DNA of 64,000 nt from Williamsia sp. CHRR-6. Lineage in GTDB: Bacteria; Actinomycetota; Actinomycetes; Mycobacteriales; Mycobacteriaceae. Below the pieces are notes generated by a model, which was not told the DNA's origin, ran no database searches, and worked only from the letters and a program-made list of their open reading frames with translations. Location: contig NZ_JAHCSG010000004.1 in the NCBI RefSeq assembly GCF_018474015.1, forward strand, positions 124,001-188,000. The letters run 5' to 3'. Shown here piece after piece: positions 54,721 through 64,000 of this stretch (position 1 is its first letter; each line of letters begins with the position of its first letter). Both the position numbers and the translations under genes were made by a program.

Positions 54721-55443
54721 GTGGTGAGCAAACCAGTGGATTACGAGGCGGCCAAGGCTGCGCTGCGCGCGCAGATCGCCGCGCGCGCCGACGCCGCGGG
54801 TGGCACGGAGGGTGCGCAGCGACCGTGGCGCCTGCTGGGCGCAGCCGCCAGCCTGTCTGTCATCGTCTGCGCTGTGGTGCTCACCTTGTGGATCGCCTCG
54901 AGCTCACCTGCCCCACAGGTGGCCTCGGCTCCACGCGTGGCCGACAACGCACGATCGTCGGGGACCGACGGTGCCGCGGGGTCACCGGCACCCACCGGCT
55001 CGACGCCGTCGGCGGTGGTGCCCGCAGGCACTCCAGCGTCAAACGCCGCTGCCGAGGCAGCCACCCAAGGCATCGTGGGCATCCCGCCCTTGATCGCCGC
55101 ACCCGGTGCGATCACTGCGAGCGGTACCGATCAGCCGCCCGGCGAGCAGCCCGGCGAGCGTAGTGGGCTCGACCGGGACGGTTCTCGCGCACGTGGTGTC
55201 GCACCCGCCCTGCTACCGCCGACCGCGCGTGCCCCGCTGAGCCGACCGGCACCACCACGTCGGCCTGGGCGACCCCCGGCCCCACCGCGCACCGACCCGG
55301 CCCCACCGCCTCCGCGAGTCGATCCGGCCCCGCCGCCCCGGGTCGATCCGCCGCCCGCCCCGGCCCCTGCGCCCGATCCCGACCCGAGCCCTGCGCCTGC
55401 ACCCGATCCGGTGCAGAGCAACAGCGACGCCGGCGCGCCGTAA
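54721..55443 (+). CDS. Membrane-anchored protein with proline-rich C-terminal region
   Basis: A 240-residue protein with a basic cytosolic N-terminus of about 40 residues and a single span (about 45-65, …LLGAAASLSVIVCAVVLTLWI…). A Ser/Ala/Pro-rich outer region follows, and the last 75 residues are dominated by Pro, Asp and Arg (repeats such as Asp-Pro-Ala-Pro-Pro-Pro). Low-complexity Pro/Asp tails of this kind span the cell wall in actinobacteria. No enzymatic domain is seen. GTG 54721 and 54724 follow GAGGA closely; the upstream frame to 54664 is less supported. Confidence 0.65.
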   Translation: MVSKPVDYEAAKAALRAQIAARADAAGGTEGAQRPWRLLGAAASLSVIVCAVVLTLWIASSSPAPQVASAPRVADNARSSGTDGAAGSPAPTGSTPSAVVPAGTPASNAAAEAATQGIVGIPPLIAAPGAITASGTDQPPGEQPGERSGLDRDGSRARGVAPALLPPTARAPLSRPAPPRRPGRPPAPPRTDPAPPPPRVDPAPPPRVDPPPAPAPAPDPDPSPAPAPDPVQSNSDAGAP

Positions 55444-60837: not shown

Positions 60838-61611
60838 ATGACCGTTCTCACCGACCTCGTATCCGCGGTCTCCGGCGGCAGCGTCGAGATCGTCGATCTG
60901 ACGGCGCCGCTGCAGGCGTCCACCCCCATCCTCAACCTGCCCGAACCGTTCGCCAACACCCAGCCGTTCGCGCTGCACGAGATCAGCAACTACGACGCCG
61001 CCGGGCCGGGGTGGTACTGGAACAACATCTCCACCGGAGAACACGTGGGCACCCACGTCGATGCGCCGAACCACTGGATCACCGGTCGCGAATCAGCGGA
61101 CGTGTCTGCGGCACCGGTCAAACAACTGATCGGGCCGGCGGCGGTGCTCGACGCCTCCGACCGGGTGGCGGACAATCCCGACTTCCTGCTCGAGGTCAGC
61201 GACATCCACGCCTGGGAGGCCCAGCATGGACCGCTGCCCGAAGGCGGCTGGTTGCTGTTCCGCACCGGATGGGATGCGCGGTCGCATGATTCGGCGGCGT
61301 TCCTCAACGTCGACGAGAACGGGTCGCACACCCCTGGGGTGTCGGTGGAATGCGCCAAGTATCTCGCCGAGGAGACCACGCTGTTCGGGTTCGGCGTGGA
61401 GACGGTGGGCACCGACGCCGGCGGTGCGGGGGCGTTCGACCCGATGTTCCCGTGTCACCACTACTTCCTCGGATCGGGCAAGTTCGGGCTCACCCAGCTA
61501 CAGAACCTGGCCCAACTGCCGCCGACCGGCGCGGTGATCGTGGTGTGTCCGCTGCCCATCGTGGGTGGAAGCGGCAGCCCCGCACGCGTTCTGGCGATGG
61601 TGTCGCGGTGA
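60838..61611 (+). CDS. Cyclase-family (kynurenine formamidase-like) metal-dependent hydrolase
   Basis: The 257-residue protein carries the cyclase-family zinc signature HVGTHVDAPNHW (about 70-81), the usual metal site of kynurenine formamidase and related hydrolases. Further conserved segments are WLLFRTGWD near 138, GVSVECAKYL near 167 and GVETVGTDAG near 185. The family cleaves amides, lactones and, in isatin hydrolase, a cyclic ring. The ATG at 60838 has AAAGGAA upstream. Its TGA overlaps the ThDP gene GTG by 4 bp, which argues that the two enzymes act in one pathway. Confidence 0.87.
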   Translation: MTVLTDLVSAVSGGSVEIVDLTAPLQASTPILNLPEPFANTQPFALHEISNYDAAGPGWYWNNISTGEHVGTHVDAPNHWITGRESADVSAAPVKQLIGPAAVLDASDRVADNPDFLLEVSDIHAWEAQHGPLPEGGWLLFRTGWDARSHDSAAFLNVDENGSHTPGVSVECAKYLAEETTLFGFGVETVGTDAGGAGAFDPMFPCHHYFLGSGKFGLTQLQNLAQLPPTGAVIVVCPLPIVGGSGSPARVLAMVSR

Positions 61612-63275
61612 CGGTGGCCACGGGTTCGACGATGTCGGTGGCCGACCTGATCGGTGCCACCCTCGTCGACCTCGGGGTCGACACCGTCTTCGGTGTGGTG
61701 GGCAGCGGCAACTTCGTGGTCACCAACGCTCTTCTCGCGGGCGGAGCCCGGTTCGTCGCCGCCCGCCACGAGGGTGGTGCGGCGACCATGGCCGATGGCT
61801 ACGCCCGGATGAGCGGCTCGGTGGGTGTGGTGACGATGCACCAGGGTTGTGGTTTCACCAACGCGCTCACCGGGATCGGTGAGGCGGCCAAGTCACGCAC
61901 CCCGATGTTGGTGTTGGCCGCCGACACCCCCGGTGCGTCGGTGCTGTCGAACTTCCGCATCGATCAGGACGGGCTGGCCACCGGCGTGGGCGCGGTGAGC
62001 GAGCGGGTGCACTCGGCGCAGACCGCGGTGGCCGACACCGTGCGCGCGTACCGAATCGCGTTGCACGAGCGGCGGACGGTGGTGTTGCAGCTGCCCATCG
62101 ACATCCAGGCCGAGCCTGCGGTGGCGGCCGTGGACACGGCGACGCTGGGGTCTCGTCCCGACCCCGTCCGACCGGCTGCAGACGCGGTGAACCGACTCGC
62201 CGACCTGATCATCGCATCGCAGCGGCCGGTGTTCGTGGGTGGTCGCGGTGCGCGGGGTCATCGCGACATCCTGCGGGCGGTCGCTGCGCGGGCCGGTGCC
62301 CTGCTCGCCACCTCCGCCGTCGCCAACGGGCTGTTCGGGGGAGACGAATGGTCGCTGGGGATCTCGGGCGGCTTCTCCTCCGACACCACCGCCTCGCTGA
62401 TCGGTGACGCCGACCTCATCGTGTCGTGGGGCTGCGCGTTGAACATGTGGACGATGCGACACGGTCGGTTGATCGGCGCCCAGACCACCGTGGTGCAGGT
62501 CGACGACGACCGCTCCGCGCTGGGGCGGCACCGGCCGGTGGACCTGGGCATCCACGGCGATGTGGCATCCACCGCAGCTGATCTGTTGCAGGAGTTGACG
62601 TCTCGAGATGTCGATGCGCCCCGGTATCGCACCGGAGACGTCCGGGATCGGATCGCGGGGTCGTCACGGTGGCAGGACGTGCCGGTGACCGCCGCCCCGC
62701 AGCCGGATCGAATCGACCCACGGACGTTGACCATCGCCCTCGACGAGTTGCTGCCCGCCGACCGGGTCCTCAGCATCGACTCGGGCAACTTCATGGGCTA
62801 TCCCAGCACGCACCTGTCGGTGCCGGACGAAAACGGTTTCTGTTTCACCCAGGCCTTCCAGTCGATCGGCCTGGGACTGGCCACGGCGATCGGCGCGGCA
62901 CTGGCTCAGCCGCACCGGTTGCCGGTGCTGGGCACCGGCGACGGCGGTCTGATGATGGCCGCGGCCGAACTGGAAACGGTGGTGCGGCTGGGCATTGCGA
63001 TGGTGGTGATCGTCTACAACGACAGCGCCTACGGGGCCGAGGTCCATCATTTCGGGTCGGATGTGAACCTGTCGACCGTCACCTTCCCCGAGACCGACAT
63101 CGCGGCACTGGCACGCGGAGCCGGCTTCGAAGCGGTGACCGTGCGGTCGGTGGCAGACCTCGATGCCGTGCACAAATGGTTGGTGGGCAGTCGAACCCAG
63201 CCGTTGCTGATCGACGCGAAGATCGCCGCCGACGGCGGCGCCTGGTGGCTGCACGAGGCCTTCGCCAAGCACTGA
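61608..63275 (+). CDS. Thiamine-diphosphate-dependent enzyme (decarboxylase/acyloin type)
   Basis: The 555-residue protein is of the ThDP pyruvate-decarboxylase-like family. The catalytic Glu lies in RHEGGAATMADGYAR (about 47-61), and the Mg/ThDP motif GDGGLMMAAAELETVV followed by the conserved Asn in VIVYNDSAYG lies near residue 443-475. The three-domain layout matches benzoylformate decarboxylase, acetolactate synthase and cyclohexane-1,2-dione hydrolase, and sequence alone does not decide between them. It is coupled to the cyclase gene by a GTGA overlap, and it ends just before the inverted repeat arrays. Confidence 0.85.
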   Translation: MTVATGSTMSVADLIGATLVDLGVDTVFGVVGSGNFVVTNALLAGGARFVAARHEGGAATMADGYARMSGSVGVVTMHQGCGFTNALTGIGEAAKSRTPMLVLAADTPGASVLSNFRIDQDGLATGVGAVSERVHSAQTAVADTVRAYRIALHERRTVVLQLPIDIQAEPAVAAVDTATLGSRPDPVRPAADAVNRLADLIIASQRPVFVGGRGARGHRDILRAVAARAGALLATSAVANGLFGGDEWSLGISGGFSSDTTASLIGDADLIVSWGCALNMWTMRHGRLIGAQTTVVQVDDDRSALGRHRPVDLGIHGDVASTAADLLQELTSRDVDAPRYRTGDVRDRIAGSSRWQDVPVTAAPQPDRIDPRTLTIALDELLPADRVLSIDSGNFMGYPSTHLSVPDENGFCFTQAFQSIGLGLATAIGAALAQPHRLPVLGTGDGGLMMAAAELETVVRLGIAMVVIVYNDSAYGAEVHHFGSDVNLSTVTFPETDIAALARGAGFEAVTVRSVADLDAVHKWLVGSRTQPLLIDAKIAADGGAWWLHEAFAKH

Positions 63276-63278
63276 CTC

Positions 63279-63490
63279 GTCGGTTGGGCGGAAACCCGCG
63301 TCGAGTGGGCGGAAACCCGCGTCGAGTGGGCGGATAACCCCCGTCGAGTGGGCGCTAATCCCCGTCGAGTGGGCAGAAACCCCCGTCGAGTGGGCGGAAA
63401 ACCCCCGTTGAGTGGGCGCTAATCCCCGTCGAGTGGGCGGAAACCCCCGTCGAGTGGGCGCTAATCCCCGTCGAGTGGGCAGAAACCCTG
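63279..63490. repeat. Array of ten 21-bp direct repeats
   Basis: Ten units, each GTCGAGTGGGC followed by GCTAATCCCC, GGAAACCCCC or AGAAACCCCC (two units are 22 bp), begin 3 bp after the ThDP gene stop. The first unit has GTCGGTTGGGC instead. There are no unique spacers and no encoded conserved product, so it is not CRISPR. A matching array lies 135 bp further on in the opposite orientation. Confidence 0.95.
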
Positions 63491-63625
63491 CGCAACTACC
63501 GATCTGAGAGCCCGAAGCATCGGTGGACATCCGTGAGGACCGAGCCACCCCCGCATCGACGGCGCATCACAGCTCACCGATTCACACGCCAGACGAGGGC
63601 GGCCGCCCAACAAAACGAGATCGCC
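63491..63625. other. Spacer between the two inverted repeat arrays
   Basis: 135 bp without a recognisable gene. It would form the loop if the two arrays paired. Unlike the arrays it shows no periodicity, apart from a degenerate unit start (GCCGCCCAA) at 63602. Confidence 0.5.
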
Positions 63626-63744
63626 GCCCACTCGACGGGGTGTTCCGCCCAACCGACGGGGATTAGCGCCCAACCGACGGGGTTTTCCGCCCAACCGACG
63701 GGGATTAGCGCCCAACCGACGGGGATTAGCGCCCAACCGACGGG
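63626..63744. repeat. Array of six 21-bp repeats in the opposite orientation
   Basis: Six units, GCCCAACCGAC followed by GGGGATTAGC or GGGGTTTTCC (the first unit has GCCCACTCGAC), are the reverse complement of the units in the left array. The last unit is cut off by the stop codon of the convergent reductase gene. The type found in the left array's first unit is the norm here, and the reverse, so exchange between arrays is suggested. Confidence 0.95.
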
Positions 63745-64000
63745 TCAGGCGGGCAGCCAGCGGCGCCGCCGCTCGGTGCCCCGAGAACGCACCAGCTCCA
63801 GGCGAGGCGGTGGTCCGTCGGTCCGGCCGGTGGGCGGCTTGCGGTTACCCGCGGCGTACGGCAGCGGCCACACCGCACCCGGGCCGGTGTATCCCTGCTC
63901 GGCGGCGGCGTGCAGTGTCCACTGAGGGTCGTAGAGGTGGGCACGTCCGATGGCCACCAGGTCGGCGCGGCCGGCCAGCAGCACCGAGTTCACGTCGTCG
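63745..64000 (-). CDS. Old-Yellow-Enzyme-type NADH:flavin oxidoreductase, 3' end only
   Basis: The last 84 codons of a gene that continues past the window edge. LAGRADLVAIGRAHLYDPQW and TLHAAAEQGY followed by GPGAVWPLPYAAG match the end of the OYE-like domain found in bifunctional salicylyl-CoA 5-hydroxylases and related NADH:flavin oxidoreductases. These add or relocate hydroxyl groups on aromatic thioesters or reduce enones. The last 25 residues are Arg-rich and not conserved. The location beside the ThDP gene fits a catabolic cluster, but the N-terminal part is needed to tell a reductase from the bifunctional hydroxylase. Confidence 0.75.
   Translation of the reverse strand, partial: DDVNSVLLAGRADLVAIGRAHLYDPQWTLHAAAEQGYTGPGAVWPLPYAAGNRKPPTGRTDGPPPRLELVRSRGTERRRRWLPA

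Follow-up and report, generated by a model that had tools for sequence, protein, structure and literature searches.

Phased 21-bp repeat arrays at gene 3' ends and enriched in convergent gaps, in Williamsia sp. CHRR-6 and its relatives

Background

The window analysed here, a stretch of 64,000 nucleotides (C4:124001-188000) of the 4.0 Mb, 14-contig genome of Williamsia sp. CHRR-6 (hereafter G000), ends in a convergent gap of 469 bp that is filled by two opposed arms of a 21-bp repeat (63279-63744). This locus raises a simple question: what are such arrays, and why should they sit where two genes meet tail to tail? To our knowledge, the way in which transcription ends between convergent genes of high-GC actinobacteria is unsettled.

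The array of the window

The first of the two genes (61608-63275, + strand; start codon chosen by us) carries three TPP_enzyme Pfam domains and is predicted to encode a thiamine-diphosphate-dependent enzyme. The second, of which the window holds the 3' end (63745-64000, - strand), extends past it (L134:3746-6100) and encodes a protein of 783-784 aa with FMN oxidoreductase and FAD-binding domains. The stops lie at 63275 and 63745, and each arm starts 3 bp past the stop of the gene that is read in sense with it, the leaders being CTC for the + arm (63276-63278) and, on its own sense strand, CCC for the - arm (63742-63744). The + arm comprises ten units (63279-63490; core GTCGNNTGGGCG/A, tails of 9-10 nt) at successive distances of 21, 21, 22, 21, 21, 22, 21, 21 and 21 bp; its first core has the variable letters GT and the following ones AG, with one GTTGAG. 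The - arm comprises six units spaced by 21 bp (63624-63744, or about 63619-63744), five with GT and the innermost with AG. This confirms the initial annotation, which had described ten units facing six, and adds a decayed seventh core of the - arm (63604-63615, - strand), in phase and retaining 7 of the 10 fixed core letters; apart from this decayed core, the central spacer (63491-63623) is not repeated. The same annotation had noticed that the units at the boundaries carry the variant of the other arm, and had seen in this a trace of inversion or gene conversion. The variants are indeed present (GT in the outermost + unit, AG in the innermost - unit), but the interpretation has no special support: mixed-variant arms are common in other gaps, so that these units are no special sign of inversion.

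Elsewhere, the window contains a second tandem array (1431-1574) with a period of 18 bp, 8 copies and a higher-order unit of 54 bp, and C-rich tandem repeats of 24-30 bp (55274-55411), possibly a putative proline-rich coding stretch.

A repeat family found in two genera

Absence of the unit from the rest of the genome and from relatives would have counted against the initial annotation; it was found in both. A two-unit pattern that includes the tail of the window's genome has 53 matches in this genome, 0 in 40 relatives and 0 when reversed, which speaks against chance; the initial annotation was right that this is not noise. The tail types are real. The shorter string GTCGNNTGGGC has 330 occurrences in the genome, its control 149. 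In 40 stretches of G000, chosen by clusters of cores from core-variant listings, a detector that uses the core only identified 59 arrays (mean 4.7 units, maximum 17), which form 10 opposed pairs and 39 single arrays. In three congeners, labelled G002, G005 and G006 (G003 and G004, mentioned below, are congeners as well), most arms are paired, with 19 facing pairs and 10 single arms.

Exact pairs of cores at 21 bp, sought without regard to the tail, are present in six of seven congeners (11, 52, 0, 14, 52, 74 and 2 matches; controls 0). An exact two-core search of the bacterial family was positive in 18 of 401 genomes and in 2 of 31 genera, namely the window's own genus (7 of 8 genomes) and Gordonia (11 of 52, counted from the table); the two weakest of the 18 yielded no more than 1 and 2 matches, and reversing the pattern as a control gave a single match in each of 4 other genomes. 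When one mismatch was allowed in 26 named genomes, 19 places were found in G. lacunae, 14 in Gordonia sp. 'Campus', 4 in G. rhizosphera, one in each of three more and none in the other 20, the control matching once. G003 is the sole genome among the eight of the genus without a match to either two-unit pattern.

Some observations concern the distribution along the chromosome. For the core variants listed, C1:1-509000 and C5 of G000 have lone core matches without clusters. In G006, a stretch of 846 kb on the largest contig (G006:C1:942880-1789267), which contains dnaA (1594436), has no exact core pairs among the matches listed; in G000 the nearest array found is at least about 109 kb from dnaA (C4:374701), and five array loci lie elsewhere on C4. 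Avoidance of the origin as a rule was not retained, being seen in G006 and unclear in the window's genome. A search of the latter for the DnaA N-domain gave no match; a search for the C-domain did. Finally, the ends of contigs C1 and C2 (L112:3780-4131 and L122:3340-3689) carry a near-identical opposed array plus about 250 bp beyond it; this common stretch may be the end of a putative HNH/DUF222-like gene (its 3' part) present in several copies, and is a candidate reason for the assembly break there.

Core and tail of the unit

The unit consists of a conserved core, GTCGNNTGGGCG, and a tail of 9 bp that usually ends in C; a C also precedes the first core in 48 of 48 arms of three congeners. 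The detector demands 8 of 10 core letters and the loci of the relatives were picked with 21-bp patterns, which builds in part of the core and spacing regularity. On this basis the fixed core letters are conserved at 91-100% in 276 units of the window's genome and, for the congeners G002, G005 and G006 (166 units), at 93-100%; among the 81 Gordonia units two of these letters vary, position 7 (80%) and position 9 (58%). The two N letters of the core are mostly AG, AC, GT or GC.

The common tails are CTAATCCCC and GAAAACCCC in the window's genome, GTTGGAGAC in G006, TTTCCGGAC in G002, GTTGGAGAC and GCAGGACGC in G005, and TGGCTTTTC and TCCGTTTCC in G. lacunae; in G004, all 11 units listed, of 14 in the tail-free list, have tails ending in TGCGGAC. 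Different loci of the same genome agree in their tails at 0.55-0.62 (G000, G002, G005 and G006) or 0.48-0.52 (two Gordonia), and tail identity is somewhat higher among the units of one arm (0.60) than for arms of the same genome taken at random (0.53). For unrelated loci of different genomes the agreement is low in some comparisons (0.25 for G000 with G006 or G002, 0.32 for G002 with G005) and higher in others (G006 with G002 0.50, G006 with G005 0.45, the two Gordonia 0.49). Across 15 pairs of orthologous arms from different species, the mean agreement is 0.43, with extremes of 0 and 0.88; here too the values are low between G002 and G005 (0.10-0.50 in six arm pairs) and between G000 and G006 (0.00), and not low between G006 and G002 or G005 (0.18-0.85). 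All these comparisons concern loci of the relatives picked with patterns that require a 21-bp spacing, one of which is additionally biased towards A and C at a small number of positions in the tail; a search that left the tail free gave the same kinds of tails among the matches listed. The species can be assigned from the tail in 325 of 396 units, a figure driven by G000 (216 of 217), since the remaining genomes give 47/61, 28/37, 11/21, 21/38 and 2/23. As far as the letters themselves go, the tails differ by lineage, sharply in some comparisons and with overlap in others, while the core does not, and the divergence of the tails falls short of a strict species-by-species turnover. The 9-nt tails recur between units and loci, unlike the spacers of a CRISPR, which are unique.

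Spacing and helical phase

Neighbouring cores within 80 bp of each other, taken without any imposed step, lie 21 bp apart in 181 of 206 cases in the window's genome (otherwise 22 bp fifteen times, 42 bp eight times, 20 and 64 bp once each), in 118 of 123 in the congeners (otherwise 8, 13, 20, 68 and 78 bp) and in 41 of 49 in Gordonia (otherwise 22 bp, 42 bp four times and 63 bp three times). A unit is skipped in only 3 of 407 within-array steps. Like iterons, the arrays are direct repeats whose spacing of 21 bp amounts to two full turns of the helix.

The centre of facing pairs is also nearly fixed in the congeners, where 16 of the 19 pairs of G002, G005 and G006 have 24-26 bp between their inner cores (the others 5, 5 and 15 bp); a looser count over five congeners gives 17 of 23 facing cases (the others at 5, 6, 33, 36, 67 and 100 bp). 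Among the matches listed for G006 and G002, 14 of 15 facing distances equal 3-5 modulo 10.5, a result to be read with care, as the distances were taken by hand from the list for these two genomes, facing hits more than 150 bp apart were omitted, and loci of common ancestry were included. Twelve of the 15 belong to the 25 + 21k class, whose members have a common phase by definition; of the rest, two measure 15 bp, which is shorter than 25 bp by about one turn, and one measures 134 bp. A period of 10, 10.5 or 11 bp describes these listed matches comparably well. In six gaps common to two congeners the centre distances are 25/25 (three gaps), 24/25 (two) and 25/5 (one), and in the three 25/25 gaps 9, 12 and 11 of the 25 centre letters agree. 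The pairs of the window's genome do not follow the 25-bp rule: their centres measure 10, 11 (four pairs), 14 (two), 37, 78 and 143 bp, without helical phase (Rayleigh test at 10.5 bp, p about 0.5). Of the five pairs with centres of 10-11 bp, two (L112 and L122) are copies of nearly identical sequence and two others (L111 and L135) resemble each other in the centre. A palindromic centre was considered and set aside, the complementarity (0.349 against 0.286 +- 0.031 when shuffled, 16 centres) being suggestive at most. In two places, L179 (G006:C1:205031-205149) and G006:C1:2967713-2967812, the arms point apart, with 11 and 13 bp between them, the reverse of the usual facing pair.

Position relative to genes

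Array-bearing gaps are strongly enriched between convergent genes. The 46 array gaps of the window's genome comprise 23 convergent, 20 co-directional and 3 divergent ones, the 189 array-less gaps of the same stretches 24, 125 and 40, respectively (convergent 23/46 versus 24/189, Fisher P 1.9e-7); in the relatives the corresponding figures are 19, 21 and 5 versus 17, 78 and 27 (P 2e-4). These counts, which cover the 54 of 59 own arrays situated between two called genes and leave out 5, depend on genes called by an in-house codon-usage script without homology, and some of the relatives' calls are doubtful. Where a sense gene lies upstream of an array, the median distance from that gene's stop codon to the first core is 6.5 bp in the window's genome (42 of 54 arrays; 31 within 20 bp) and 23.5 bp in the relatives (48 of 68 arrays; 22 within 20 bp). 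The bias of orientation in co-directional gaps is weak, with 14 sense versus 9 antisense arrays in the window's genome and 17 versus 13 in the relatives, where many arrays are pairs and one arm is hence antisense by geometry. Divergent gaps contain 3 arrays in the window's genome and 7 in the relatives. A coding repeat of seven residues can be ruled out, because the arrays trail the stops in differing frames (1, 2, 3, 5 ... bp) and steps of 20 and 22 bp occur.

Four features had escaped the initial annotation: the regular 21-bp phase, the near-fixed centre of the congeners, the proximity of the arrays to stop codons, and the way in which tails differ between species.

Folding and terminator signals

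The idea that transcripts of either gene could form a very long hairpin deserves separate treatment. Whole paired gaps do fold strongly, with a z of -17 in the window and, for the 30 paired gaps out of 32 that are shorter than 450 nt, of -4 to -13, but strong folding of opposed arms is the necessary outcome of their opposition. The two arms of the window taken alone have z values of +1.1 and +1.3, and single arms compared with mononucleotide shuffles average -1.2 (59 own) and -1.0 (68 of relatives), 14 of each falling below -2 (28/127). Over the 32 pairs, the two variable core letters agree between the arms at 0.402 versus 0.395 for random arms of the same genome, and the tails agree slightly less than at random (0.498 versus 0.533 +- 0.017). 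By group, the variable letters agree at 0.49 versus an expected 0.34 in the 10 own pairs, several of which are related copies, and at 0.26 versus 0.37 in the 19 congener pairs. The folding of paired gaps proposed in the initial annotation is real, then, but a selected long hairpin is unsupported: the arms are not matched beyond random over all pairs, single arms fold weakly, and most arrays of the window's genome are single.

With a simple in-house scan, a T-run signal resembling an intrinsic terminator was seen in 4 of 22 own array-bearing convergent gaps, in 0 of 6 array-less ones and in 0 of the 5 convergent gaps of the window; in 18 of the 22, the scan gave no signal of a GC-rich hairpin with a T-run after it, as in a canonical intrinsic terminator. 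The contrast between array-bearing and array-less gaps was dropped, the latter being too few. An Rfam search of 10 of the 80 array loci, with E up to 1, placed no family on an array and gave one below-cut-off match inside a gene. This match, to CRISPR-DR20 (32.3 bits for a cut-off of 42), lies at 62909-62944 in the thiamine-diphosphate enzyme gene of the window and is probably due to chance.

Discussion

The arrays combine a conserved core, a 21-bp spacing, a near-fixed centre in the congeners and a placement at gene 3' ends that is enriched between convergent genes. Our preferred explanation, which we hold tentatively, is that they would be helically phased tandem binding sites for a putative sequence-specific DNA-binding protein, acting as a barrier at the 3' ends of genes. 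We favour it because a regular 21 and 25 bp is what neighbours on one face of the DNA helix need, and what an RNA stem does not. Protomers of the candidate protein would lie side by side on one helix face and build a nucleoprotein block within the gap, and this block may act as a barrier, an insulator or a bidirectional terminator that curbs read-through and head-on transcription between adjacent genes. The differences in tails between species could come from arrays recombining with each other, or from a protein that reads part of the tail.

Two known systems come close to this. Iterons of plasmid replication initiators are direct repeats about two helical turns apart on which the protein is bound side by side; the arrays are like them in their spacing, with protein binding still putative, and differ in lying at dozens of chromosomal gene ends, some of them opposed, without sign of replicon function. 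The Sal-box/TTF-I terminators of mammalian rRNA genes are tandem protein sites of one orientation that stop the polymerase downstream of the gene; the likeness is in the tandem sites past a gene end, the difference in that they are eukaryotic and of one locus type, whereas the protein of the arrays is putative. The MIRU of mycobacteria are comparable as intergenic tandem repeats that touch stop codons in a related group, but have longer units, located in operons, with small reading frames.

Several points weigh against a protein block. A first core 1-3 bp past the stop would have the polymerase halted inside the gene, unless the block forms further in. The orientation bias in co-directional gaps is weak, and arrays occur in divergent gaps. 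The pairs of the window's genome have neither the 25-bp centre nor helical phase, which we have weighed against the model, and their variable core letters agree more than expected; alternative periods of 10 to 11 bp fit alike. Exact tandem duplication alone would preserve 21 bp, so that phasing need not reflect selection, and the 25-bp class of centres may be inherited.

The arrays could instead act as RNA, the facing cores (and single units, weakly) folding in the 3' UTR so as to terminate transcription in both directions or to protect mRNA 3' ends, on the model of the role supposed for REP/BIME elements. The folding of the paired gaps and of the 28 single arms below -2 is in favour of this, and so is the agreement of variable core letters in the ten own pairs. 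The 25 nt before the arms are, moreover, C-rich and G-poor in three congeners (C 0.58, G 0.18 in 48 arms, versus C 0.39 and G 0.33 after 65 array-less gene ends). The placement near stops and between convergent genes is likewise that of REPs, as the main text of PMC3733652 describes them. We nevertheless think it rather unlikely, since a T-run is absent as a rule, the complementarity of the arms is that of random arms over the 32 pairs and lower still in the 19 congener pairs, 39 own arrays are unpaired, and stems have no need of a regular 21 and 25 bp.

The initial annotation had also suggested a REP-like element, and the comparison is instructive. In the main text of Di Nocera 2013 (PMC3733652), CGTC-tagged REPs adjoin the 3' ends of convergent genes, and the CGTC-tagged super-family of REP/BIME elements consists of short repeats at gene 3' ends, often between convergent genes and often in opposed pairs. 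The arrays share this location, downstream of genes in convergent and unidirectional gaps and near the 3' end, and their core, mostly preceded by C, gives CGTC. The REP unit of that text (PMC3733652) is, however, a palindrome with a stem of 8-9 bp and a CCA end, features that the array unit lacks; the array units follow each other head to tail at 21 bp. By eye, the unit consensus has no stem of 8-9 bp, and a search of the eight genomes of the genus for the RAYT/Y1 transposase (PF01797) found none (control positive in 5 of 14 genomes). Because the palindromic unit and the Y1 transposase are both absent, we do not class the arrays as REPs: of the earlier suggestion, the location as a repeated element of convergent gaps stands and the membership does not. 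The main text of PMC3733652 has no word beginning with Actinobacteria, Gordonia or Mycobacter.

Unlikely as well, in our opinion, is that these are selfish or neutral tandem repeats, spread by slippage and exchange between loci and tolerated at the 3' ends of genes, the places at which an insertion is least damaging. Such an origin would agree with the somewhat homogeneous arms, with tails that are alike across the loci of each of four species and diverge between orthologous arms of G002 and G005, with the small number of divergent gaps (3 of 46 own, 5 of 45 in relatives) and with the patchy presence in Gordonia. It is harder to reconcile with the core being kept at the same orthologous gaps at which tail and centre diverge. 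The eight genomes, searched for mobility by Y1 only, lack that transposase, and plasmid and phage collections have no match at E 1e-3; a mobile-element or viral origin was accordingly rejected. In viral contigs the own-tail pattern had 0 matches and the core-only pattern one, whose repeats read TGTCGTTTGGGCGTTATTTGC and look unrelated to the arrays.

A programmed head-on collision, in which polymerases would pause at each core and the facing pair would determine how far apart converging polymerases meet and terminate, is very unlikely: polymerases would be unable to occupy sites 21 bp apart at once, the arrays of the window's genome are mostly single, and 7 of its 10 pairs have centres of 10-14 bp. 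The reading owes its interest to the common pairing of arms in convergent gaps and to one preprint, in the available text of which collided E. coli polymerases, in their best resolved classes, have 26, 29 and 31 bp between active sites, near the 25-bp centre of the congeners (PMC13082048). In that model of bidirectional termination, which is likewise set between convergent genes and at a comparable size, a hairpin or pause sequence positions the collision, and not phased arrays (PMC13082048, same text).

Conclusion

The arrays can provisionally be described, from their sequence, as intergenic interspersed repeats in a phased tandem, non-palindromic form that appears undescribed within the literature searched; there, six strings of the core 12-mer were found in one paper only, on a human gene, with most subscription journals outside the coverage. 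Since the core is conserved, the phase regular and the tail variable, the dozens of natural gaps per genome make binding, phase and read-through separately testable, and the orthologous gaps that have kept their cores and changed their tails and centres are a useful case for selective retention in short bacterial repeats. One may go further and imagine, in the two genera, a dedicated, fast-evolving DNA-binding protein that forms phased blocks between convergent genes, its preference and the tails co-evolving in each species. We consider this doubtful, and have given it less weight because of the overlap in tails between G006 and both G002 and G005; if true, it would be a bacterial counterpart of the co-evolution of satellites and their binding proteins, serving to separate neighbouring transcription units.
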